Source: Jaapia argillacea MUCL 33604 (taxonomy: Eukaryota > Basidiomycota > Agaricomycetes > Jaapiales > Jaapiaceae). From it: 64,000 bases of DNA. The stretch covers positions 314,914 to 378,913 of the forward strand of contig KL197722.1 in assembly GCA_000697665.1 (NCBI GenBank), in the 5' to 3' direction. The position numbers were made by a program, and so were the translations under genes. Positions 3,984 to 32,559 of the stretch are shown here, one piece after another (position 1 is the stretch's first letter; each line of letters begins with the position of its first letter). The notes beneath the pieces are model-generated. The model was given only the letters and a program-made list of their open reading frames with translations. It searched no databases and was not told where the DNA came from.

Positions 3984-5086
3984 TTAGCCTGATGATACCG
4001 ATATCCTCAGGCACTGGAGCTGGAACCCACTCACCAACTGTTGATGAATCGAATCTCTAGATCGCATTTCCGTGACAATCAGCTCCAACAAAGCCAGTTG
4101 TTGGCGAATCCGCGCCCCAGCCACTCGACGTGGAGTACCATCATCCTCCCGCCCCCGTCCGCCATGTAAGTAGCTCACGCGTGTACTTCGCTCCGGGACG
4201 GTCAAGTTCACCGCATCTTCGTAGGAAATCGGCTCCATAAATCGAGAAGAATCGTGATGATGGTGAGGGGAGCGTGCTGTGGGGACAGCGCCCTGCGAAT
4301 ACCCTCGAATATCGCCTCCAGATCGCACCGAAGTGACCTTGGAGGCTCGATGTAGTGCAGACGACACGTAACTCTCGTAAGTGTTGCATGGACCAGCCGT
4401 ACCGATGTATGGCCAAACCGTCCAGTCGATGTTATCCTGGTCGCTCTCTAGTTCCTTTATTTCATCCCATTTGGCGTGTCTTGACCGCGTACGACCGACA
4501 ATGGTGATTTCCGATCTCGGCCACGAGTACGGCATCGGGGATTCAAGACCTAACGTTGGGGGTCTCTCCTCGCAATGCACATCCAGGAATTCGCATTGCT
4601 TTACCCACTCGGGTGCGTATGCTTTGTGAGGCTTCGGATGCCTAATGAAGGGATCGACGAATGTGGGGAGGCCGTTACCCGCTGCGGTTTCGCTCGTTGT
4701 CGATAGAGGCGACGCCTCTTGAGGTTGTATCCAACCCCCCGATCCTCGGGTTGCTGCAGCCCTGCAGAAAACGGAGGCTTCAGCGGTGTTGGCCCCATCT
4801 TCGGAGCTCTCGTCCTGTATCGACAATGTTGGCAACCAATGAAGTCGGACCAGGATTGGTGAGCACTTACATTGTTCGATCTCTCCAGTGGCTCCACTCC
4901 CTCTACTGGGACGCCTTCGGCCATGTATAAGTCCTGAATCCATCTTTGTAACCTTGACTGCCCAAACTCGTGTGCAGGTGTTCCGAACCTCGGCGTTGGA
5001 GGGTATGGTGGAGACAGGTAGCGGAAGCTACCCATCGACATCTTTTTACCCTCCATATTCGAAGTACTCTGAAGATTGAGAGCCAT
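3984..5086 (-). CDS. Hypothetical protein, two exons
   Basis: Exons 5086-4871 and 4814-3984 join across a 56-nt GTAAGT..CAG intron in phase 0, giving about 348 aa. I do not recognise the family. The N-terminus is Pro/Tyr-rich and the middle is rich in Trp, His and acidic residues (for example PEWVKQCEFLDVHCEE). No signal peptide or membrane segment is visible. The C-terminal third is helical and charged. The start chosen is the first in-frame ATG; upstream only a GTG is available. A GTGAGT donor at 4034 could splice to 3970 and end the protein at 3914 instead, but that exon would overlap the convergent gene, so the unspliced end is preferred. Confidence 0.5.
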
Positions 5087-7284
5087 TACTCGAGGAGGGC
5101 TGATGAAGTGAGGATGATTGTAGTTGCGGAGAGGAAGTGTTGTGTTCGCGCATGCCACTTTGGCGCGTCAATGCACTGTAGGTCCCTTGTGCCACTTCAC
5201 GGTCAGATCGGTGTGACACCACGCGTTATTTTCGTAGTCCTCTGAAGACCTGAAGATTGTCTCAACGCTTTCGCTTTGATTCTGGTCCAAGGGGAACCAA
5301 ATAGGCTTTGCTGAGCGTCTGAACAACCAGCAAGGACATGAGGGTTGCCGTGAGGGGCTGGTATTAGTTTCAGAACAAATGGCCCATCTACTTATGTCGT
5401 TGGTATAATTGTCCTTCCTTCAGCCATATCAGCTTGAATTGACCGTCACTTTCGTCCAATCTAAACCACAGGAGCAAGACTGTTTCGCATGGTAACAATA
5501 GCGACGTCTAACTTGGTCCCGGCCTATTGTGTGCACGGATTTTCAGAATTCGAGGCTCTTGCAATGTACAACGTTTCGAGCTACTCTCTACTCTCGAGAT
5601 GCGTTGGTTGGTGTGCCGTGGCCATGCGAATACACATCACCTTGCCACCATTCACCCTCGTTCACCAAGTACGCGACATGTCACAGTCACGTGCGAGTAT
5701 CACAAAGCTTGTTCGAGGTGCCATCATGATTCTGAAGCTTTCTTGAATCTACTCACCGTCTAGGACGGCCTGATACTTCAGCTGAGAACGCGATCCAACC
5801 ACGACGGTGCTGTCTTGATTCCCGGCCCAATGTCGCCGATTTTCATTCCCATTGCTTCGGCTCCTGAGGCTGAAGCGCTGAAGGCCTACAGTCGTGCTCG
5901 CCTCAAGCGGCACTAATACCAAATACTTCCAGGGCTTGGTCACTCAGGGTGCCCTACGCTATTTGACACCACTCTCTCTGTTTGTTGGGATGTTTTGTGG
6001 CGTAGAACGACACGCTCCTGCTTCGATTCTGCAGGCTGCCGATGGGCTAGCGCTGGAGATTTTGACCCCACGATTGCGGAGTCGCGTACAGTAGTTCAAG
6101 ATTGGGGTGCTTCCCTAGGTGAGGCCCCTCAAATGGCCTTCTCCGCGGTAGAATAGCGAAAAGCTCGGAAGATATCGTGCCGCGAGGTGAGACTTTTTCC
6201 CTCTGTTTCTTGTCTCCGAAGAGCATTCACGTCAACTTGACGGCAATTCTGGGGGCGTGTGGGGTGAGCTGTCGTTTTTCTCGTCATTAGACCGGACGTA
6301 AACATCCTTTCAAGCAGACTCTCGCACCTCGCACCATACGAACGCACCCAGGTGCAAGCTCTTCGAGAAAACTTTCAGTTAGCTTGACAATCAACATGCG
6401 CACACGTTCCTTATTATCTTTTCGCCTGCCATCCCGTACAGCACCACAGTTTCTTGGAGTTCGGTTGTGGTAGACATTCGTGTTGGGAAGGATCAATCTC
6501 GGGACTACGCCGATTAGATTGCGTAACAAAGAGCATCAAAGATTCGGCGGTGACCAAATGAAGTCGAGGCAACACGGCCCAGTCGCTCTCCCCCAGACGA
6601 GGGAGTAACGTTGGTGACGAATAGAATTGCTTTCCCCCCACATCAGGCGGAGCACCGCCCATCCGCGTCCAACAGGGCCTGTCGATCGTACGTCAAACGC
6701 TCAAACACGGTGGAGAAGATCGCGACAACGTGTAGGCCTTCCAAGGAACGGAATATTCTCCATCTGACTAAGGTTAGCTCTTTCCGAAGGTGGACCGATA
6801 TCGAGAAGTTCATTGCGTTATCAGAAGGGAGGACTGCGCGGTAAGCACCTCATCGTAACATCGCCCCCGCAAAAACACTTTAGCTCAACATACTTAACCC
6901 CAGTAGGCGCACTGGATACTGCAATGATGGACTGATAGCGAGGGAGGAAAGCGGCGGCATTGGGTAGAGTTCTCTGCCCCCGCGACGCGAGTGGGGTGAA
7001 GGGGGTAGTACCATACCTCTTCAACCAATGGTAGCTGGTGGGCGAGGTATCCTGTCCTATCTGATAGGAAAAATCAAATAGCTGTGGACTGTCGCGCAAT
7101 CAGGAATACTACAAATCACGATGGAATCGCAGAGAGGAACACGACAAATCTGGAGTGCAAGCGCCTCGGGCGGCATTGAGTTATCCGATCGGACTCTCAA
7201 TTAGGAAGGTACAAACGTACGACGCCGGCGCAACCCCCATTTTTTCTTTATCTTCCATTGCCTCGAGGTCGACCCACCAAAAAC
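5087..7284. other. 2.2-kb stretch without a supportable gene
   Basis: Only short open frames on both strands, none with a convincing splice chain. Fragments on the minus strand between 6100 and 7100 look faintly protein-like and could be remains of a decayed gene. The right end holds the INO1 promoter. Confidence 0.4.
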
Positions 7285-18937: not shown

Positions 18938-21900
18938 TCACGAATCCCAGCTGATTTTGGAATTTCTGAAGACTGACACCATCCCGCTGCGAAAGATAGG
19001 TTAACTGAGTGTAAGCAGGAGAGCCAAAGTGATGATACTTACACCGGGATGAGGGTTGGCTCGACGATTATGAGTGTTCCAAACCGCTTGAAGAGCTCCT
19101 CGGCGTAACTGGTAAAACGAGGACGAAGTTGAGCATGATGAATCGAAGATCAACAGGAAAATCACACCCACAGTGCGACAACCCAGGCGTCGTACGGCGT
19201 CATGGAGAATGATGAACCATAGTCTTGGTCTAGCCGCGTGGGCAAGGCAATTTTTGTAGCAGAGGCAAGGCTCTGCATCCGCAGATACGTCGCCCCCCAT
19301 GTCGTAAGCCTGGTCTCCCGTCCTAGAATATACTCTTCGAAGGACATGAAATCTCCTCCCTTGTGGTTTGTGTCCCGGACCTCCACATCCCAGCTTAATC
19401 TGTTAGAGGGAACAGTGGCAGAGGTTTCCCATGCTTCCTTCAAAGAAATATGGGTCTTCTTGTCATTCTCCATCTCCGACGGGAACATAGTCTCAGGTGA
19501 ATCAGACAAGGATTCGCGGAGGGTCAGGTAGTCGATGATAGGATTGTGGATTTCGAGCCCTGGTGACGAAGTCAGTATCTTCCGCCCACATTACCAAGGC
19601 TACTGACCTCCGTAAGAAATTGGGAAGAAGAACCACCCAAACGGAATGTCCTTGATGCCAAAACGCGCCTCGATCATTCCTTGTAAACGCTTGACGATGC
19701 TCCCATTAGTATCTGGGAAGAGTTCATTCTGAATTCTGTTAAGAGTTTGGATTATTTCGTCGACGTGGGCTTTTCCGAAACACTGGGCCGATTGCCCAAA
19801 CTGCCTTTTGATAAACTCGATGTACTTGTTGTACGCATTGACGAACCCAAAGACGCTTTTGGTGGCACCTAGCTGACGACGAATTTCCTTAATGTGAATG
19901 TCAACTCCGGCCTGATCGATAACGAATCTGCCTTGGTTGGCGTCGAACTTTAAGAGCCCCCATCCGACGACCCCTTTTGGAAGCGAAGGCTCGAGGTCAC
20001 CACCAACGCAGGCACCGCCTGTCTTCTTCATGTTGAATGTGATACCCACGAGGTTGGCGTATTGCTGCATCTCACGCCTGGAGTAACCAAGTGAGTCGAA
20101 GAAGGCTATTCAGACAGACTGGGCGTACCATGCAGTGGCGCACTTTTCCGGGTCGTGGTGCCAGAACCAAAAGTCGTCATAGATCCTATATAGATAAAGG
20201 CCGGTCTTTTGGTTGACGGCAAAATCCATGCCGAAAAGGACCGCTTCGCCACATAGTACCTGTAGATCAAGTTGGCAAGGGATTACGATACGGAAGGGAA
20301 AACAACATACACTGAGACAGTGGGCGATTGGGACACCTCGCCGACGAGTTCTTGATGGAACGTCGACGTCGAAATGAAGTGATGCAGTGAGCCACTTCTC
20401 GAGGAAGGTCAACCACATGGGAGGTAATCCAAAGAATCGGAGGACAGTCAGTACAGAATCGTGGGGGAGCGATGGCCCAAACCTGTGGCAAAGGATGAGG
20501 CAGAAGTATAAACACAAGTTCGAACTACTCACCACTCCAGATCCGCCCGCATTATTGTGAACCGCCCATGGAGCGCACGTTGGAGATGCGCCTCTGTGCT
20601 GACCATCCTCAATATAATCTGCTGGGCATGGAGTCCACTGTTTGCTTTTTCGCCCGGCTTAGGCTCCTGGTCGTAACTACTTTGGTTGGTGTACTCCCCA
20701 GGAAGCTGCGTCATGAAGAAATGCTCCGATTGCTGCTTTTGTCGGTGACCTTCTATCGATGTCGAGAATATAGCAGGCCCCGCTGTCTCCGGTAGGTAGT
20801 CAGATCGGCGTTGGAGCTGGTCTCGGGTCAAGAATGCAGTATCGCGCTTCCAAGCCCGGGACTTGACGACCGACCGGAAGGCGTCCTTGAAAGCGATAGA
20901 CCATTTCATTCCGAGGTATTGGAACAGGAGAGCGGTGATGATTTCCGTATCCATATACGCCCTGTGAAGGTATTCCATCAGGCACTGACCATAGTCACTT
21001 CTGACTGAGACATACCTGTACTTTCCGGAGAGATGCCTTCGCATCTCAACGTAAACACCCTCCTCCGGCCATTCCCAACTTTCCAAGCTTGCAAGTTGCA
21101 TGTTTAATACGCTAGCAACCTCCTCGAGGACAACCGTATTTCCGAGGAATGTCTTCACTGTTGCCGCCTTCTGCGCGGAGAGGAGATCGCGAGAAAGCAA
21201 AGACTTGATCAGCCAATCAAGGTCATCCGAGTCGACCTTCTCGTGTCGCAAAGACGATCCGAAATCGTTAAGTGTTTTCCGAACGGATTTGAGAGCAGCC
21301 GAAGCCTCGTCGCCAGAGAATAATGATTCCAAATATTCTTCGATGGCTTTTGTATCCATGACCTTTGGTTCAAAGATCAGCTCCTGGATCTTTGCCTTTT
21401 GTTCGAGTTTTTCGGCCCTGACATCCTGGGGTACGGTGGGCGTCGACGGGGTGGCGCTCTCGGAAGACTCCTCGGGTGCTTCGACTGATGCTGACGCCGT
21501 AGCCTGCGAGTCCCCACTTTTCAGCCATTCCGTGAGCAAATTTCCAAATAGTTTGGCGTAGTCGAAACGGGTGACGGAGTGTCGTAGCTGAGTGCTCAAG
21601 ATACCCGCCCAGTCCCGTAACTGTTCTTCAGCGATACTCGGATCACTTCGAGCCTGATCCAACCACCTGCATCGGCAAGGTCAACGCACTGGGACAACAC
21701 GAAATTAATCCAGTGGAGACTAACTTTTCGATATTATCGAGGTTGTGGGTAGGAGAGATTGAGTCTGCAAGACCCGACCACTCTTGGATACCTTTGATCA
21801 GAACAGAAACTCGAGTGACGGGGTCGGATGTGGCCTCAGCCTCCCCAAGCACTTTGTTGGCATACGCAGTGAAAGTGTCACGCTGACGTTCCAACTCTTT

Positions 21901-22083
21901 GAGCTTGATTGAGGTGATGAAGTGGAGGGTTTGGCCCAGGGCAGTGCTGCAAGATTGACGGTGTTACTAACTCAAGTTTGAAAACGACGAAGTTGCATAT
22001 CTCACCTGATTTCGTCTACGAATCCGATGGAATCGAGGTCAACGAAAGATTACGATTTTGAAAGATTGGAACTCACTCGACAT
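18938..22083 (-). CDS. Reverse transcriptase-like cellular protein, copy A (884 aa)
   Basis: Ten exons join in frame: 22083-22077, 22016-22007, 21946-21725, 21666-20533, 20482-20311, 20259-20129, 20077-19608, 19559-19166, 19108-19043, 18986-18938. RT palm motifs are visible. Motif A is ADLEW..SLPHD (Asp455), motif B is RRGVPIAHCLS, motif C is IYDDFWFW (Tyr542-Asp544), and motif D is NMKKTGG. The catalytic Asp triad is intact. The first 450 residues are mostly helical and carry a Ser/Thr/Pro-rich linker. There is no integrase, RNase H or endonuclease, and no LTR. Together with nine introns this fits the non-mobile rvt class of RT-related cellular genes better than a retroelement; that assignment is inference. 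The start ATG gives exon 1 of 7 nt and exon 2 of 10 nt. The copy ends SWDS-stop and lacks the tail of copy B. Confidence 0.85.
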
Positions 22084-22360
22084 CGTTATAGTGAGGCCTC
22101 GCGGAGGCCTTGAATCGAAGATAGCCGTTGAGGAGGGCTATATACCTCACAGACATATAGCGGTTCCGCGATCGTGAGTCAAACGTCATTAGAGGAGTCA
22201 CTCCCAAAGAACACAGTAGAACGTACGTAGAACGTTCGAAAACTCTGAGTCGGTTACAACGCTGTGTAGGGCAAGTGACAACTTGCAAGCCTCGAGGACA
22301 TCGGAGCGCCAAGTACACCGATATGCGATGCAGCGTGGCCCATCAATGAGAACCAGAAAT
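18944..22360 (-). repeat. Inverted-repeat arm A
   Basis: About 3.4 kb matches 29010-32451 in reverse orientation. It covers the whole RT gene except the last two codons, plus roughly 280 bases upstream. Intron positions and exon lengths agree (exon 8 differs by one codon). In the 378-codon exon about twenty residues differ. Confidence 0.85.
22139..22144 (-). promoter_or_regulatory. TATA-like element, RT copy A
   Basis: TATATA about 55 bases before the start codon, at the equivalent place in both RT copies. Confidence 0.35.
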
Positions 22361-22637
22361 CCATACAGGTCCTGCATGGCGCCGATGGATTGGGTTATAA
22401 TAACTCGTCTTCTCTAGTAGTCAGAATATACGAACTTGGCAGAAGAGGGTCAAGGAATCAATGACGTGACAGGCACATATTGGGCCTACGAGACACCGAC
22501 TCAAAAGACTCGCAACAAAACATGGATGAATACACAGATAGGAAAGTACACCGCAGTATCAGGGATATACGAAGAAGACTGTCCCGACAATCCTTTCAGG
22601 GATACCTACGCATATATAATCAAGGGGAGCTGACTTT
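22361..22637. other. Gap beyond repeat arm A
   Basis: Similarity to the other arm ends near 22360. A 65-codon plus-strand frame (22436-22633) has no support. Confidence 0.35.
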
Positions 22638-23625
22638 TCAATGACGGCAACGAGGCGTCAGAAGAAAGGCGAGCGCTGCGAGACAGCGAGACCCGCTGGT
22701 GAGGAAAAGGAGAAAGCGGTCGGTGTCAGATGGGGGGGAGAGATGGAGGATGTGGTTGCAGTTGGACTCGAAAGCGCGAATATCTCTCTGGACGTTAGTT
22801 GGCGTGCATTTCGCAAATATGCTACTCGTAGCTCCTGAAACGCCCACGACCTGTAAATATGGTCATCCTTTGTGAAATCGAAGATGAAGTGCGCACCTCA
22901 AGACTATGCATGGAATACTCCTGACTGGTAGATATTGTGACAAGGGCATCAGTACCATCAACCGCGTAGATCTCCCCAGGATCAACCTGAGGCGTCGCAG
23001 GAGGGGTTTGGAGAGGAACATTCGTTACAATATTCGGACCAGTCATAGGAACGGGGTCTGGGATGGGAGGAATAGGATTGAGTGGCACATTCTTGCCCTT
23101 TGAGTACGCATAGTGGCGAAGTTCCTGGAGTAGATGCCAATGTTTCAACATCACAGTTCACGCAGGGAACATCCCTATGCGTTAAAGGAGCAGCAAAGGG
23201 CTCACCTCTGGAGAAAATTTGCTGAATTCGCTCTGAACCACGATGTTCATATAGATCTGACCCGCGTCCCTCAACGGTCTCAGAAGCTGAATCTCCGGCA
23301 GAGTCGACGTCGAAGCCACTTCTCCAGCCCTTTCTTCGGGTCCTGCTTGAGTGTATATGGGATGTGGTTTGAATAACGGCGGTAGGCCCAACTTTGACCG
23401 AGCATCATCCCAAGTCGGTGTTTGAGGGCAAGGTGGTGGAGGTTTGCCTGTAGCCGTGTACGCTTTCAGGTAATCTTCGATTCGTAATTCCTGTTCAAAG
23501 AACAGAGAGAAATTAGGTTAGGTTGTGAGTGCGTAGAGGGAAAGGGACGATGGGAGTTGTGCGATGAATTACCCAAGCACCTCGAAGCTTTGCTCTTTGC
23601 CATCCACTACAGGTGGTACACTCAT
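22638..23625 (-). CDS. Orphan modular protein C (256 aa)
   Basis: Exons 23625-23581, 23490-23206, 23124-22897 and 22850-22638 join with all three introns in phase 0. I do not recognise a known domain. Each internal exon begins Glu-[Leu/Ile]-Arg and ends in Ser-x-Glu, so the exons look like interchangeable modules. Exon 2 has ELRIEDYLKAYTATGKPPPP. Exon 3 has a Pro-rich core and ends ISTSQEYSMHSLE. The last exon is Cys/Leu-rich and less certain. It is paralogous to the next gene (protein D) in sequence and gene structure. It lies between the two RT copies, on the same strand as its three neighbours. Confidence 0.6.
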
Positions 23626-24021
23626 GAATAACTCTGATGAAAGTCTTGGGTCTGCCATATCCTACAGATGGAGTATCGCGAGGCCCAGAGATGCGAGGAT
23701 GGTGAAGGGCCCAAGCGCAAGATGAATGCCAAACGCGGCCCACGGTGAAGGTTCGAAAAGATAGGGGCCGTTGGGCTTGACTCCGTCGAACTCGTCGCCG
23801 CGGCCCAAAAACGATTATGAGGGTACTTTTGCGCACTCCACAACGTCAATACATCGGCCATGGATAGCCCACTCAACTATACTGTATCAGGGATCCAACG
23901 TCTGGCTCAGAAACACGCAAATGATCCGCTTGGCGAATCCTTGATTCGCTGCATTCAAGTTGCTATACATTAGATGTGATATATAGAGTGCTAGTAAAAC
24001 ATTGCGACAGTACAGTACAAC

Positions 24022-24866
24022 TCATGCTTGATCCAAGATCCGACGTTTCGGCATCCGACGTATGGGAAGTCCATCCTTGCTCCGATCAACGTAGACAGGC
24101 GAAACATGATCTTGTAAAGTGCCGACGGCGGTTAAAGGGGGTATTCGAATCGTAACGCCCCGAGGTCGCGTTTGTACAGGTATATCTGGTATGAGACTGG
24201 GAAGTACTGGGGCGGTAGGAATAGGGAGGGGATGGACTGGGAGACGGGGAGGTTTCGGAACTGCGACTGGAATGGGGGTATCAAAGGAGGGTGTGGGGAG
24301 AAGAGAAGGAATAAGCGGCGAGAGGGACTGGTGCGTATCGTCAGACGACATTTCGACATCGTGATCTAGTAATGTAATAACTTGAGGAGTAGGCGACAGA
24401 GCAAAGCAATGGAGTTCCTATGATGAGAACCAAGAAGTAGCATCAGTCCATGTCACATTCTACACTCATAAAAACGCACCTCGAATGAATACATTTCATA
24501 ATCGGGTTGGGCGCTAATGTTACAGAGAGTTTCTCCGTCAGCGCTGGTAGGTTGGTATCTTTGAAGGGTAGTTGGCATATGGCCAGCAGGAATAGGGACA
24601 GAGACAGGCTCAAAAAGTGGCGGCATATTCAACGCCACACGCTCTGCTGGGAAGGTCGGAAATTGTGGGCAAGGAACGGGAGGGCAACCAGTTGCTGAGT
24701 ATGCAGCCACGTAGTCGAAGATGCGAATTTCCTATTAATCAGGCGTATTTATTAGGTTTCGAGAATAGGGCGGGAGCGTGGAACGCACCTCGAAACTTCG
24801 TTCATCCTGCCCTTCCTGGGGCAGGAGACACATGAAGACCTCTCGTTCAGATGAACCTGCCATCAT
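24022..24866 (-). CDS. Orphan modular protein D (241 aa)
   Basis: Exons 24866-24789, 24731-24480 and 24417-24022 join with both introns in phase 0. It is a paralogue of protein C. Exon 1 ends in SFE as in C. Exon 2 opens with EIRIFDYVAAYSATGCPP (C has ELRIEDYLKAYTATGKPP) and closes with ISAQPDYEMYSFE, which matches the end of C exon 3 rather than of C exon 2. Exon 2 of D therefore reads like a fusion of C exons 2 and 3. The last exon is Pro-rich and basic at its end (IRRMPKRRILDQ), possibly nuclear. Function unknown. Two adjacent ATGs (24866, 24863) could start it. Confidence 0.65.
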
Positions 24867-25571
24867 GATAGTGGAGTAGGTGGGGAAGTGGACACAAGAT
24901 GAGAACCTAGCGAGAAGCCAAAGATAGTGGGTTATGGAGGGACCGCAGATGCAGGCCTATATGTAGACAGTTTGGGGGAATGAGTGGCACTTGTGTCCAG
25001 GATGGGTTACAATCGTTATTGTGGCGGGTATCAATCTACCATGACAACTTCACCATCGTGGCTGAATAGTCCTGATGGAGAGTTAGTGCTAGTGAAGGGC
25101 TGTCAAGGTTGGATCATGATGTAGCTCGGAAAGCTATTTTTTGTGTAGTGGGAACATCGCCAGAGATCTGACATCGTGGTTTGATTGGGCGCACCAAGTG
25201 CCTTACATGTGATGACTTAGTTATCTCTTATCACGGAAATATCTTGGGTATTTATGGAAGTATAAACTTGGTATTACCCGGCCAAGTGCTTGACCATTGC
25301 CAAAATGCGATTCATATGGTCTTTCAAGATCGCTGGACTCAGTCTCGACTATTGGACCTGTCCTCAAGTTCTCCACGTCTATTATTCATCACCCAACAGG
25401 TTAACACGATAGCAATAACAAAACATTCCATCCAAACCCAAGGACCCTCCACATCCACACCCAAACAAACAAGAGACAGACTTCCAACCTATGAAGTCCA
25501 TCTCCCCACAAACGTCAACTCCAACCAACTTCCGACACCATTTTCTACAAGAAAATCAGCCCCTCTTGAAT
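24867..25571. other. 705-bp gap inside the island
   Basis: Upstream of gene D and downstream of gene E. Short frames only; no gene or repeat seen. Confidence 0.4.
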
Positions 25572-26991
25572 TTATTGATCGTCGTCACTGTCAGAATCAT
25601 CATCGTCGCCAACCTTGATAATAAACTTGCTCTGATCTTGTGCACCCGCTCGCGCGAGCGTATCGGTTCGATGACATACAAAGCTCGTCCGGTTCCTTCC
25701 CTCTTCAGACTCGTCGTCCGAGTCCTCGGTAACCAAGATCAAGTTGGAGCTACGGACCAGTTGGCGGTAAGTTCGAAGGTTGAGGGGAAGGGGCGTGACG
25801 CACGTTTCATAATCAAGGGCCAACGACTTGCATGCATGACCCAGCAACTTCGACACTAGAATGTCGGGCCGTACTTTGAAGAATACCTCTCTCCCTGTCG
25901 GTGAGTGGGTAACCACAACCGTTATCTTGCCACCTGGCACCGTGGACACATTCGAAGTTTGAGATGCCGCAGGTTCCTCTGATTCGCGATTTTGTTCTTG
26001 GGGATCTGGTGACGAAACAAAGCGGGGGTAAGTGGATGATATGTGAAGATGAGAGTCACGTTACGCACCATCTCGATGGGGTGGATGAGGGGTCGGTGCA
26101 GCCGCTTCGGTTCTGGACTCGTCCCTGGTTTGCCTGAGGCCAAGCGGGCGTTGCGCTCGAGTTTCATCTACAGAGAATAGAGGTCAGCGTCGGTATAGTG
26201 GTCTATCAATGCCTGTGGGGAGACCACTCGCTCTGATGTAACGACAGTCGATGCTGAGGTTGACCCATCCCTTCACCCTTGCCTTCGATCACTCCGCTCT
26301 CTGTAGCCTCCGGTACGTCATCTTCTCTCCTAGTTCCCCGGTTGGTGCTCGTTTGATCTTCGTGGTCATCTGCGGGATAATTCTTTGAATCATCAGGGAC
26401 GTCAGAGTCTTCGTCGTGGACGACGTGGGAGGCCTTCCCCTTCGAAGAAGACGGAGATGAAGCCCTCGCTTTCGGTGCCACTAGAACAAATTCGTCATGG
26501 TCGCTCTCCGGATGCTGGCGCATGGGTGGCTGGACACTGTTAGTCGGCGCGGTTTTGGACGACGAAGCACAAGGAGCTGGGAATATATATCTCAAACGTT
26601 TGCCCTGGATGCCTACTATAGAAACAACGCACCTGAACTCTGATCAACCTTGGTTACAACGATGTTAGCTAGCAAAGGCCTTAACCCCTCCCATGCCGTT
26701 GGATGTATCTTCGTAAAGCTGCCTTTACAGGCATCCGCATCGTTCGTCGAAAACCGAAAGGCCAACCGAACGTCCAAATCGAAGATTTGTCTGGTCAAAT
26801 CGTACATCTCCTATGAAATTCCGCGCCAAGGATTAATCATTATCAGCTGTCCACATGCTGCACGAAGAATAGAGAGCTCTCACATCGAACGATTCGGGGA
26901 GAGCCACAATTTCGCTTTCATCACCATAACGAAGGACCGCGAGTTGGATTGTAGATTGGATGGATGGATCCACTGCTGATCGAATAAGCAT
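25572..26991 (-). CDS. Ubiquitin-fold family protein E (376 aa)
   Basis: Exons 26991-26884, 26810-26633, 26576-26265, 26167-26069 and 26005-25572. Residues 1-95 form a conserved module: two strands (IQLAVLRYGDESEIVALPES), a helix (EMYDLTRQIF) and a strand (VRLAFRFS), a PB1/ubiquitin-like pattern. A Ser/Asp-rich linker follows. From residue 259 a second module begins KITVVVTHSPTGREVFFKV, then the helix VSKLLGHACKSLALD, and after an insert ends RTDTLARAGAQDQSKFIIKV, the order seen in SUMO-like folds. The protein ends in an acidic run (DDDDSDSDDD) with no Gly-Gly, so it should not be conjugated. The exon 3 donor (GTCAAC at 26264) is weak; the frame only demands a phase-1 donor near there. Fold assignment is inference. 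Confidence 0.62.
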
Positions 26992-27363
26992 AGCTTGGTA
27001 GGTCTCGCTGTAGCGTAGTGTCACGTATCGCGAGAAGAGGATGGTGGGGTGGGCGACAATAATAGACGCGCGATGGAAACACGACAAGGAAAATGCTCAC
27101 GTGGGCGTGAATTGACTTCGCGACTGCACACTAATGTCACGGTCACCAATGGCTGCCCCCGTCGAATCTTCACAACGAAAACATGTTGAAGTGGATTGGC
27201 CCTGAAGGCCTGATGTTGTGATCAAAGCGAACCCGATTCAAACGAGCTGGCTGAGCGATTTGAAGTGGAGTTAACTCGATCATATATGTACGACGCCGAT
27301 CGCTCTTCAAGCTTCAAGTTTTCAGTCGGATGCGCACAGTACTATCGAATCAGAATATCGTCG

Positions 27364-28554
27364 TCAATGGTCTCCGTCGCTCGCGTCTGCGACTTTCAGA
27401 ATAAACTGGGCTCCATCCGTTTCCCCAACCTGCACTAGAGTATCCTCCCTTACACATCCGAACTGAGTTCTGGTCTTGCGTTTGCCTCTACGCTCTCTCT
27501 TACTCGGACGTTTTGAGTCGGATCCATTATCAGATTCGGAGTCTTCAGTCACCAAGAGAAGGGCCGACCTGAGGTAACGAGGTGTTCGTCGAAAACCCCC
27601 ATACTTCAGCAGTGTATTCAAGACAAATAGACCGTGAGCGTACTTGGTAGCTTCCAGTCCAAACCGTTTGCAAGCGGAATTTAGCAATTTTGAAACTTGA
27701 CAATCATGGTCCACGCTGAAGGAAGTTTGTTGGCAAGTTGCAGGATGTTGGACTGAAACTTTGATTTTGGTCTTTGGCGCACTAGGTACATAAGACGGGG
27801 CTTGGGATGTGTGGGGTGTTTGTGATCCTGGCAGTTCACCGCAGTCCTCCCCGCCTTCAAGTGTAGAGGAGACGACGTTGGTTTGACGAGTGAGCGGAAC
27901 GGTTCCGGAATTCAAGCTTGTTCCCTGGTTCCTCTGCTCTTGCCGTGTTGAACCTTGACATACGGGGTGAGCTGTTTACTTAATGCGAGATACTCACATA
28001 CTAACCACTCCGATTCCAAGACAAACTTTGGCCAGGAGAGAAGAGGGGATGGACGGATGTGTCTTTGCCACAGGAGTGAAGTACATTCCCTCCAGGTGGG
28101 GGTCTTGGTGAGAATTCGGAAGACTCGGGCCCATCATCACGTTCGACGACTTCACCCCCTTGTTGTTCATCCTCATCCCGTAAGCTGATGGAGCATTTGG
28201 CCTCGTCCCTGGTAGTGACAACGATGTTCGCCAACAAAGCCCGAATACCGACCCAAGCTGTCTCGTGGATGGGCAAAAGGCGACCCATACAAGCATTCAA
28301 GTCGCAAGTGGAGAGCCGAATATCGGTAGTGAAACCAAGGCCGAATATATTTCTAGCCAGATCCTGTACCTCCTACAGGCGTTGCGTTCCGAGTGAATCT
28401 ATCAGTTATGCGCCCTGTGTGAGTTCGCAGGCGGGAATATTCTCGCCTGAAACGATTCTGGTAGAGCGACAATCTCGCTGTCTTGGCCATGGTTGAATAC
28501 AGCCAGCTGTATGGTGGATTGTACAGGTGGGTCTATTGACGACCGGAGCAGCAT
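27364..28554 (-). CDS. Ubiquitin-fold family protein F (353 aa)
   Basis: Exons 28554-28447, 28372-28027 and 27971-27364 join in frame. It is a paralogue of E. Exon 1 has the same 36 codons (QSTIQLAVF..EIVALPESF) and exon 2 opens EVQDLARNIFGLGF. The C-terminal module starts at about residue 220 (KIKVSVQHPATCQQTSFSV) and ends VREDTLVQVGETDGAQFILK. A basic insert (KRPSKRERRGKRKTR) lies between the helix and the last strands and could be a nuclear signal. Intron 1 starts GC rather than GT (TTCAG/GCGAGA), while E has GT at the same place. The intron 2 donor is GTTTGT. The C-terminus has no Gly-Gly. Function unknown. Confidence 0.62.
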
Positions 28555-29009
28555 ACCAGGATAAAAGAGAGCACCTAGAGTATCTTCAGGTCAAGCTCTC
28601 AGAGGAGTTGAAGGAGCAGGGTCAAAGATGTAACTAAGTCCTGCTAGTTGTACGACTCGGACTCGGAGAGGCGAACAGAGGTTCGAATGGGTTCAACTTC
28701 AACTTCAACTTCAATAGGCCGCGAGCCCTTGACTGCCAGCAACATCGACCTCGGCGTCAGAATTCTCCTCCATTTCTGCCACCAGTACCAGTCCATCTAT
28801 CCATCGGGACATACTGACACTGCGGTGTATCTTCACCCATGGTTCGTTGGGAGTCCTCTTTGTTGGGCGGCTCGTAGGCCAATTAACGCGTTACAGTCCG
28901 TCACTTCATAATCTTCAACATTGATGCCGGCTCAGAGTCCCTCTTTCACCGAGTTCGTAAGTTATATGAGAGGACGACCAAACCACCGGCATCCGCATCC
29001 TGAAGAAGT
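28555..29009. other. Gap between gene F and repeat arm B
   Basis: Upstream flank of gene F and outer flank of RT copy B. Short frames only. Confidence 0.35.
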
Positions 29010-32000
29010 ATTTCTGGTTCTCCCTTGCTAGAATGTAAGTAGAATGTAAGGCCACGTTGCATCGCATATCGGTGTACTTGGCATTCCGATGTCCTCGAGG
29101 CTTGTCACTTGCCCTCCACTGGCACAGCGTTGTAATCGACTCAGACTTTTCGAACGTTCTGCGTACGTTCTCCTGTGTTCTTTGAGAGTGACTCCTCTAA
29201 TGACGTTTGACTCACGATTGCGGAACCGTTATATGTCTGTGAGGTATATAGCAGCCCTTCTCAACGGCTATCTTCGATCCAAGGTCCCCCCAAGGCCTCA
29301 CTATAACGATGTCGAGTGAGTTCCAATCTTCCAAAATCATAATCTTTCGTTGACCTTGGTTTCATCGGATTCGTAGACGAAATCAGGTGAGATATGCAAC
29401 GAATTTCGTCGCTCTCAAACTTGAGTTAGTAACGTCATCAATCTTGCAGCACTGCCCTGGGCCAAACCCTCCACTTCATCACCTCAATCAAGCTCAAAGA
29501 GTTGGAACGTCAGCGTGACACTTTCACTGCTTACGCCAACAAAGTACTTGGGGAGGCTGAGGCCACATCCGACCCCGTCACTCGAGTTTCTGTTCTGATC
29601 AAAGGTATCAAAGAGTGGTCGGGTCTTGCAGACTCGATATCTCCGACTCACAACCTCGATAATATCGAAAAGTTAGTCTCGATTGAATTCATTTCGTGTT
29701 ATCCCAGTGCGTTGACCTTGCCGATGCAGGTGGTTGGATCAGGCTCGAAGTGATCCGAGTATCGCTGGAGAACAGCTGCGGGACTGGGCGGGTATCTTAA
29801 GCACTCAGCTGCGACACTCCGTTACTCGTTTCGACTACGCCAAACTGTTCGGGAATTTGCTCACGGAATGGCTGAAAAGTGGGGACTCACAGGCGACGGC
29901 GCCAGCATCGGTCGATGCGCCCGAGGGGTCTGCCGAGAGCGCCACCCCGTCGACACCTACTGCTCCCCAGGACGTCAGGGCCGAAAAGCTCGAACAAAAG
30001 GCAAAGATCCAGGAGCTGATCTTTGAACCAAAGGTCATGGATACAAAAGCCATCGAAAACTATTTGGAGTCGTTATTCTCTGGCGACGAGGCTTCGGCTG
30101 CTCTCAAATCCGTTCGGGAAAGCCTTGACGATTTTGGATCGTCTTTGCGACACGAGAAGGTCGACTCGGATGACCTTGATTGGCTGATCAAGTCTTTGCT
30201 TTCTCGCGATCTCCTCTCCGCGCAGAAGGCGGCGACGGTGAAGACATTCCTCGGAAATATGGTTATCCTCGAAGAGGTTGCTAGCGTATTAAATATGCAA
30301 CTTGCAAGCTTGGACAGTTGGGAATGGCCGGAGGAGGGTGTTTACGTTGAAATGCGAAGGCATCTCTCCGGAAAGTACAGGTATGTCTCAGTCAGAAATG
30401 GCTATGGTCAGTACCTGATGGAACAACTTCACAGGGCGTATATGGATACGGAAATCATCACAGCTCTCCTGTTCCAATACCTCGGAATGAAATGGTCCAT
30501 CGCTTTCAAGGACGCTTTCCGGTCGGTCGTCAAGTCCCGGGCTTGGAAGCGCGATACTGCATTCTTGACCCGGGACCAGCTTCAACGCCGATCTGACTAC
30601 CTACCAGAGACAGCGGGGCCTGCTATTTTCTCGACATCGATAGAAGGTCACCGACAAAAGCAGCAATCGGAGCATTTCTTCATGACGCAACTTCCTGGGG
30701 AGTACACCACCCAAAGTAGCTACGACGGGGAGCCTAAGCCGGGCGAAAAAGCAAACAGTGGGCTCCACGCCCAGCAGATTATCTTGAGGATGGTCAGTAC
30801 AGAGGCGCATCTCCAGCGTGCCCTCCATGGGCAGTTCACAATGATGCGGGCGGATCTAGAGTGGTGTGTAGTTCGGACTTGTGTTTATGCTTCTGCCTCA
30901 CCATTTGCCACAGGTTTGGGCCATCGCTCCCCCACGACTCTATACTGACTGTCCTCCGATTCTTTGGATTACCTCCCATGTGGTTGACCTTCCTCGAGAA
31001 GTGGCTAACTGCATCACTTTGTTTCGACGTCGATGGTCCTGCAAGAACTCGTCGGCGAGGTGTCCCAATCGCCCACTGTCTCAGTGTATGTAGTTTTCCC
31101 TTCCGTATTGTAATCCCTTACCAACTTGATCTACAGGTACTGTGTGGCGAAGCCGTTCTTTTCGGCATGGATTTTGCTGTCAACCAAAAGACAGGCCTGT
31201 ATCTCTATAGGATCTACGACGACTTTTGGTTCTGGCACCACGATCCCGAAAAATGCGCCACTGCATGGTACGCCCAGTCATTTTGAAAAGCCTTCTTCGA
31301 CTCACTTGGTTGTTCCAGGCATGAGATGCAGCAATACGCCAACCTCGTGGGCATCACAGTCAACATGAAGAAGACAGGTGGTGCTTGCGTCGGCGGCGAC
31401 CTCGAGCCTTCGCTTCCAAAGGGAGTCGTCGGTTGGGGACTCTTAACATTCGACGCCAGTCAAGGCCGGTTCGTCATCAACCAGCATGGAGTTGACATCC
31501 ATATCAAGGAAATTCGTCGCCAGTTGGACGCCACCAAGAGCGTGTTCGGATTCGTCAATGCTTACAACAAGTACATCCAGTATATCAAAAGACAGTTTGG
31601 CGAATCAGCGCAGTGTTTTGGAAAGGCACACGTCGACGAAATCATCCAAACTCTCAATAGAATCCAGAACGAAGTCTTCCCAGATACTAATGGGAGCATC
31701 ATCAAACGGTTACAGGGAATGATCGAGGCGGGCTTTGGCATCAAGGACATTCCATTTGGGTGGTTCTTTTTCTCGATCAATCGCGGAGGTCAGTAGCCTC
31801 GTCCGTTTTGCCGGAAACAACTGACACCGTCACCAGGCCTCGAGGTCCACAACCCTATCATCGACTACCTGACCCTCCGCGAATCTTTGTCCGATTCACC
31901 TGAAACTGCGTTCTCGACGGAGCTGGAGAATGACAAGAAGACCTACACTTCTTTGAAGGAGGCATGGGAAACCTCTGCGGTTGTTACCTCCAACAGTGGA

Positions 32001-32451
32001 GACTGGGGCATGCCAGAGGTCCAGGACACAATCCACAAGGGAGGAGATTTTATGCCTTTCGAAGAATACATCCTTGGACGGGAGACTAGGCTTGAGACGT
32101 GGGGAGCGACGTATCTGCGGATGCAGAGCCTCGCCTCTGCGACAAGAATTACCTTGCCTGCGCAAGTCGCCGCAGAGTATGGTTCGACGTACTCCATGAC
32201 GCCATACGACGTCTGGGTTGTCGCACTGTGGGTGTCGTTTCCTATTGATCTTTGGTTCATCTCGCTCATCTTCGTTTATGTTTACTAGCTATGCTGAGGA
32301 ACTCTTCAAGCGGTTTGGGACACTATTGATCGTCGAGCCAACCCTCATCCCGGTGTAAGTGTCTTCACTTCATTTAAATCGTACACTCAACCAAGCTATC
32401 TTTTACAGAGGGATGGTGTCCGTCTTCAGAAATTCCAAGATCAGCTGGGAT
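29010..32451 (+). repeat. Inverted-repeat arm B
   Basis: Partner of 18944-22360. Similarity begins about 300 bases before the RT start (ATTTCTGGTTCTC present in both) and stops inside the last exon right after the codons for SWD. Confidence 0.85.
29245..29250 (+). promoter_or_regulatory. TATA-like element, RT copy B
   Basis: TATATA 59 bases before the ATG at 29309, at the equivalent place to copy A. Confidence 0.35.
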
Positions 32452-32559
32452 GCTACTAATACCTCTGCCCCTCAAGTTGGTGTAGGTCGAGGACGAGGAC
32501 GGGGACGGGGTCGAGGTGGACGGGGCGGCTACCTGGGACGAGGACGAGGATGGAGTTAA
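29309..32559 (+). CDS. Reverse transcriptase-like cellular protein, copy B (919 aa)
   Basis: Exons 29309-29315, 29377-29386, 29450-29671, 29730-30863, 30914-31085, 31137-31267, 31319-31788, 31837-32233, 32289-32354, 32409-32559 join in frame. It has the same domain order and catalytic residues as copy A (motif A Asp455, YDD 542-544). Exon lengths are identical except exon 8 (one codon longer) and exon 10. The last exon adds a tail of about 36 residues dominated by Arg-Gly repeats (VGRGRGRGRG), of the kind that binds RNA. Frame, splice sites and catalytic motifs are intact in both copies, which argues that both are under selection or that the duplication is recent. The exon 8 donor (GTCGTT) is weak but is forced by frame. 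Confidence 0.86.

Follow-up and report, generated by a model that had tools for sequence, protein, structure and literature searches.

We analysed a 64,000-nucleotide stretch of the Jaapia argillacea MUCL 33604 genome (contig C14:314914-378913; hereafter the window), in which two copies of a reverse transcriptase (RT) gene face each other as the arms of an inverted repeat and enclose four smaller genes. We put the probability at roughly three in four that this palindrome is an ordinary local inverted duplication of a cellular RT gene with gene conversion between the copies, and that the enclosed genes are incidental to it. A first-pass annotation, made from the sequence alone, had proposed two intact RT genes in inverted orientation around two tandem gene pairs, all four on the minus strand, and our gene models bear out both parts of this description. 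The window is internal to contig C14 (887406 bases, one of 95 contigs in a 43.7-Mb assembly); as it lies away from the contig ends, a subtelomeric setting of the locus is unsupported.

Seven ungapped blocks pair positions 18944-22340 with 29050-32451 in inverted orientation at 84-95% complementarity. An alignment of the arms, suggested as a check when the repeat was first noted, returned a single blastn match of 3413 bp with 89.7% identity. The high-identity arms are ~3.4 kb each, as initially estimated, and the 6709-bp spacer between them holds the tandem pairs C1/C2 and E1/E2 (Table 1). Each arm consists of a single RT gene plus its upstream region, with no larger block, and the outer gene ends (18938 and 32559) coincide with the limits first drawn. 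The original extent needs to be widened on the upstream side, where weaker homology reaches ~240 bp beyond the arms (local alignment score 109, shuffle maximum 63) and tapers off gradually. Flanking sequence differs between the two arms. A 1001-bp piece of arm A searched against the genome matched A and B only. The arms show no CpG depletion (observed/expected 0.99 and 0.98), and by this measure decay resembling repeat-induced point mutation (RIP) was not seen in them.

Table 1. Features of the palindrome and its neighbourhood, in window coordinates.
Feature	Position	Strand	Description and basis
RT gene copy A	18938..22156	-	10 exons, 885 residues, stop after ...ISWDS; spliced model
Low-divergence tract of arm A	20018..22340	.	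6.3% divergence from B; interpreted as a tract of gene conversion; breakpoint test, 0/2000 permutations
Diverged homologous upstream region of arm A	22348..22581	.	Pairs with ~28789-29022 by arm B; score 109, 0/300 shuffles
C2	22658..23658	-	255 residues, three GLEBS-like motifs, 4 exons; model; PF21240 E=4.6e-6, 27 bits (as printed) against a cut-off of 27
C1	24022..24866	-	241 residues, two GLEBS-like motifs, 3 exons; model; PF21240 11.5 bits, E=0.32, below cut-off
E2	25572..26991	-	354 residues, conserved N-terminal domain and probable SUMO-like C-terminal domain, 6 exons; model
E1	27364..28554	-	329 residues, E2 paralogue, 4 exons, first intron with GC donor; model; alignments A1, A2
RT gene copy B	29233..32559	+	10 exons, 921 residues, extra RG-rich C-terminal tail not in A; spliced model
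E3	~47607-46077	-	Third E gene, beyond the arms; N- and C-terminal domains both located; trial splice models hit stops twice

The RT splice models were made by hand from the sequence. In these models, the two copies share their start codon and have 9/9 introns at common positions, and their proteins are identical at 812 of 885 aligned residues. Over 885 codons (NG86), dN is 0.043 and dS 0.315, a dN/dS of ~0.14; both copies are intact and under purifying selection. An upstream start exon for copy A was dropped, copy B having no matching open start, and the common ATG at MSVRYI requires no additional intron. We also rejected a model with two first introns separated by a 10-nt exon, which by eye broke the frame, and chose a single first intron of 130/134 nt. 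The RG-rich tail of copy B occupies window positions 32450-32559, where copy A stops; it may add RNA binding.

Divergence between the arms is unevenly distributed. Among 3392 aligned sites there are 330 differences, and the best single breakpoint, at arm A position 20018, separates a 5' side with 6.3% divergence from a 3' side with 17.2%. The likelihood ratio for this breakpoint is 46.4; the largest value among 2000 permutations was 9.3, and none reached the observed one. Protein differences between A and B step from 28/579 in the 5' part to 42/262 in the 3' part, and those between A and its outgroup, a third RT copy on contig C3, are much alike in both parts (331/579 vs 165/262). The 5' two thirds of the arms are thus far more alike than the homology to either side. 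Because the introns step as well (45 of 571 intron sites differ on the 5' side, 43 of 163 on the 3' side) and the upstream flank of the tract has diverged as well, we infer that the block of high likeness is the product of partial gene conversion between old inverted duplicates. Alternatively, conversion played no part: one copy would have undergone faster evolution in its 3' portion, or would have received this portion from a third paralogue that has since been lost. The breakpoint test, limited to one breakpoint inside the arm, leaves some room for this, but the equal step in the introns and the diverged homology on both sides of the block make it unlikely.

The predicted RTs fit the rvt class of cellular reverse transcriptases, which they resemble in being encoded by a free-standing, intron-bearing gene under selection. 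The rvt genes are reverse transcriptase-related cellular genes, and the founding paper is said to be that of Gladyshev and Arkhipova in 2011. Pfam RVT_1 matched residues 435-583 of copy B, the copy scanned, with E=5.9e-6 and 26.6 bits, under the 29.6 cut-off. The motif A Asp (region ADLEWFGPSLP) and the motif C DD (YDDFWFW) are conserved across A, B and the contig C3 copy, and a profile of the three gives weak palm alignments with RTs of known structure (best E=0.019). From the available portions of the literature, the class has a very long branch and, between motifs 2 and 3, a large insertion called loop 2a (PMC5718144), and its members are single-copy, stress-linked and capable of non-templated polymerisation (PMC10680173). 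The presumed motif 2 and motif A lie ~140 residues apart, as judged by eye. When the presumed motif 1-2 region was joined to the palm (three of five joined versions were scanned), the score of 29.8 bits was no better than those of control stretches (29.3 and 29.8), with 28.2 for the palm alone. No rvt-specific model in Pfam or NCBIfam matched the RT.

Searched with a 383-residue part of the RT, the genome yielded three places: A, B and the copy on contig C3. Ordinary RVT_1 occurs in at least 150 places, and with nine introns and three places set against these, the RT is not part of a retroelement. None of the 150 RVT_1 places that were scored is the A, B or contig C3 copy, the single exons of which fall below the limit or score of that search. 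Many of the 150 carry stops, mostly TGA, and such interrupted fragments may hint at RIP-like decay, which is absent from the RT arms. Three places also depart from the single copy typical of rvt genes. Our RTs share with that class the free-standing cellular setting, the RT motifs, the introns and purifying selection, but differ from its description as single-copy (in the text available from PMC10680173) in having three copies, two as an inverted pair and one nearly intronless, and in the RG-rich tail of one copy. A possible RVT-class gene in foxtail-pathogen strains such as Arcadia offers a parallel in copy-number gain; according to the part of PMC8381367 available to us, it sits in a subtelomeric 4-kb tandem repeat, whereas the present copies are inverted and internal on an 887-kb contig. 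Two scans of prokaryote contigs confirmed no relative; one of them used two short peptide patterns and matched 88 stretches, and a pattern match followed up with the RT profile gave no profile match. Scans of viral contigs likewise confirmed no relative, and a weak match to a plasmid RT in Geminocystis (E=2e-3) was set aside as a general RT.

The RT on contig C3 is a single 900-codon open frame at offsets 6251-3552, on the minus strand, within C3:754000-763900. It is 39% identical over the searched 383-residue part, and the whole protein matches copy A at 345 of 841 aligned residues. It lacks all nine A/B introns; one intron is predicted close to the start. It has the appearance of an old copy made from cDNA; intron gain in A and B is conceivable as an alternative. 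The protein begins with an RG-rich stretch of its own, at the opposite end from the tail of copy B. By analogy with published talks on the Neurospora protein and other rvt proteins, each RT would be free-standing and cellular, and would probably polymerise nucleotides without a template under stress. The RT pair is a case of an rvt-type gene in several copies, two of them inverted with apparent conversion between them and one near-intronless, and can help in asking what such enzymes do.

The first-pass annotation had left it between a functional module and a hotspot of local duplication, and the evidence favours the latter. Three families (RT, C and E) are locally duplicated within ~29 kb. One E gene, E3, lies beyond the arms, and around the third RT a profile search of ~50 kb turned up no relative of either the C or the E family; there, weight can be given to the closer C and E profiles only, the silence of the GLEBS profile (A5, see below), which missed Nup98 itself, being weak evidence. 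We therefore consider a hotspot of local duplication, and not a module, the most likely reading of the palindrome. In this scenario, local duplication would have produced an inverted second copy of an rvt-type RT gene and of a few hundred bp upstream of it, and gene conversion between the two arms would have homogenised the alike part. The enclosed genes would belong to two further families that were also duplicated locally, and their enclosure would be a by-product of a duplication-prone region. An RT gene found elsewhere without linkage to the enclosed families had been named beforehand as a result that would speak against a special arrangement; the contig C3 copy is of this kind, as far as that search reaches, while A and B are themselves linked to C and E.

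In a module, multi-GLEBS proteins that bind Rae1 would cooperate with the RT copies and the ubiquitin-like proteins, and the palindrome would keep them linked; their task could be, for instance, to handle nuclear RNA during stress or to act against transposons. A shared RNA theme is conceivable from the accessible text on Rae1 in mRNA transport (PMC8790125) and on the stress link of rvt genes (PMC10680173), and searches of the genome located the C and E families at this locus only. We nevertheless consider a module quite unlikely, given E3 outside the arms and the lack of C or E neighbours found at the third RT. Several points do weigh against local duplication of an rvt-type gene with conversion as we propose it: (i) independence of sites is assumed in the mosaic test, and part of the step could come from uneven mutation; (ii) rvt membership is suggested by RT motifs and gene layout, not by a match to a named rvt protein; (iii) genome searches located family C (2 genes) and family E (3 genes) at no other place, which would also be expected of a module; and (iv) the evidence comes from one genome, and a conserved RT-C-E linkage in fungi would still be compatible with it.

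A mobile element or composite transposon, with the arms as its terminal repeats and the four enclosed genes as cargo, would also be expected to have long inverted arms that can encode protein. Such an element is very improbable, as each arm holds a gene with nine introns that is under purifying selection, homology between the arms tapers upstream, and the 1001 bp of arm A match A and B alone, the third RT being 39% identical at the protein level. Inverted repeats are generally known as a source of misassembly, but an assembly artefact, or haplotypes misjoined head to head, is hardly credible for arms that differ at about a tenth of their aligned sites, end differently and have different flanks, with only two near copies in the genome.

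The multi-GLEBS proteins inside the palindrome, together with two GLEBS-bearing genes on contig C8, are the surprising part of this analysis and weightier than the RT pair. To our knowledge, GLEBS is known from single motifs in nucleoporins and checkpoint kinases, and a repeated nuclear-pore docking motif in two enclosed genes is unusual. C1 and C2 are 49% identical over the first 72 alignment columns and carry a repeated motif, S-x-E-E-(L/I)-(R/H), the Glu-Glu pair of which is invariant in 5/5 motifs chosen for this likeness. A Pfam scan of C1 and C2 found no domain besides GLEBS, and the autopeptidase domain (PF04096) is absent from their matches; of the five motifs scanned singly, two gave any match, both below the cut-off. 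We picked the five motifs, among them those of C1, by eye and built a profile (A5), which retrieved eight PDB sequences at E<=10, the best being 3mmy_B at 1.3e-4. Seven bear the name Nup98 or Nup98-Nup96, and the eighth is a peptidase S59 domain protein; no Bub1 or Mad3 chain is among the PDB matches listed. The motifs thus resemble Nup98 GLEBS (PF21240) in the Glu-Glu pair, in retrieving Nup98 peptides and in an intron junction described below, but occur two and three to a small protein and are diverged, with gene C1 and all five single motifs under the Pfam cut-off.

All five motifs of C1 and C2 are split in our models by a phase-0 intron between the two glutamates. The genome's Nup98, located by its autopeptidase domain at one place on contig C1, is interrupted by an intron at this very codon junction. 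The motif also occurs in two adjacent genes on contig C8 (28.1 and 28.6 bits, above cut-off), with the same intron. The intron is therefore present in 8/8 GLEBS motifs examined, a count that stands for far fewer independent observations, as one motif (C8a) was found by a pattern requiring the intron and repeats or neighbours may share an origin. On contig C8, near-canonical Nup98 GLEBS motifs are split over the last exons (C8:486000-495900, offsets ~4230-4404 and 6700-6880). Upstream of them is a repeated region that we take to be basidiomycete BTB-like (Pfam gave no match for one copy), and position suggests that motif and upstream region form one gene. The pair probably reflects one capture followed by duplication.

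Genome-wide searches were of limited use for a motif split in this way. PF21240 listed two places, both below cut-off: Nup98 (14.7 bits) and a candidate on contig C7 (16.1 bits) that showed no GLEBS upon translation. C2 was not listed, presumably since introns split its motifs. A DNA pattern for the split motif matched five places against four for a backward control, so the count itself proves nothing; translation confirmed four of the five (Nup98, one on contig C8 and two in gene C1), and the remaining place is on contig C5. Profile A5 is weak on split motifs, giving one contig C8 piece at E=0.064.

As described in the accessible part of each source, GLEBS of Nup98 anchors Rae1, an mRNA transport factor (PMC8790125), and in Bub1/Mad3 two glutamates form salt bridges with Bub3 (PMC3061984). 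Rae1/Gle2, a WD40 protein, is the predicted partner of C1 and C2, whose repeated GLEBS motifs would mediate the binding and would descend from the Nup98 motif. Since GLEBS has seemingly spread along with its intron junction, multivalent binding of Rae1 is a prediction that can be tested in a tube. Among the matches listed for literature on GLEBS, in the portions available, there is no basidiomycete multi-GLEBS protein family. A bolder proposal, which we regard as a long shot, is that the Nup98 GLEBS exon junction spread more than once into new proteins (C1/C2 and the contig C8 pair), and that the Rae1 adaptors or decoys at this locus work with the duplicated RT and the ubiquitin-like proteins as a nuclear RNA-handling module held by a gene-converting palindrome.

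The four enclosed genes had at first been called orphans. That label is only partly right, given the GLEBS-like motifs of C1/C2 and the probable SUMO-like C-terminal domain of E1/E2. E1 and E2 are 59% identical in their N-terminal domain, for which Pfam gave no match (E2 and E3 scanned) and PDB no convincing one (best E=0.22). A profile of the C-terminal domain of E1-E3 (A1) retrieved six PDB sequences at E<=10, four of them named SUMO or small ubiquitin, with SUMO-2 the best at E=0.0034. Rad60-SLD (PF11976) scored 15.0 and 11.9 bits against a cut-off of 23.8 and was not matched by E3, whose best match is another ubiquitin-like family. Ras-binding domain families, which have a ubiquitin-like fold, score about equally for E1 and E2. 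A structure model of the C-terminal domain reached a pLDDT of 59 (two sequences, each with a translated intron retained); in Foldseek, most of the best 50 of 895 matches were ubiquitin-like, and none of the 895 was at E<=0.001. The domain is probably SUMO-like: its profile finds SUMO chains and its best Foldseek rows are mostly ubiquitin-like, whereas the weak scores, an acidic tail, the absence of a terminal Gly-Gly and the low confidence of the model set it apart from SUMO-like domains. The first intron of E1 (28446-28373) apparently uses a GC donor (GCGAGA...CTGTAG), while the E2 and E3 models use GT.

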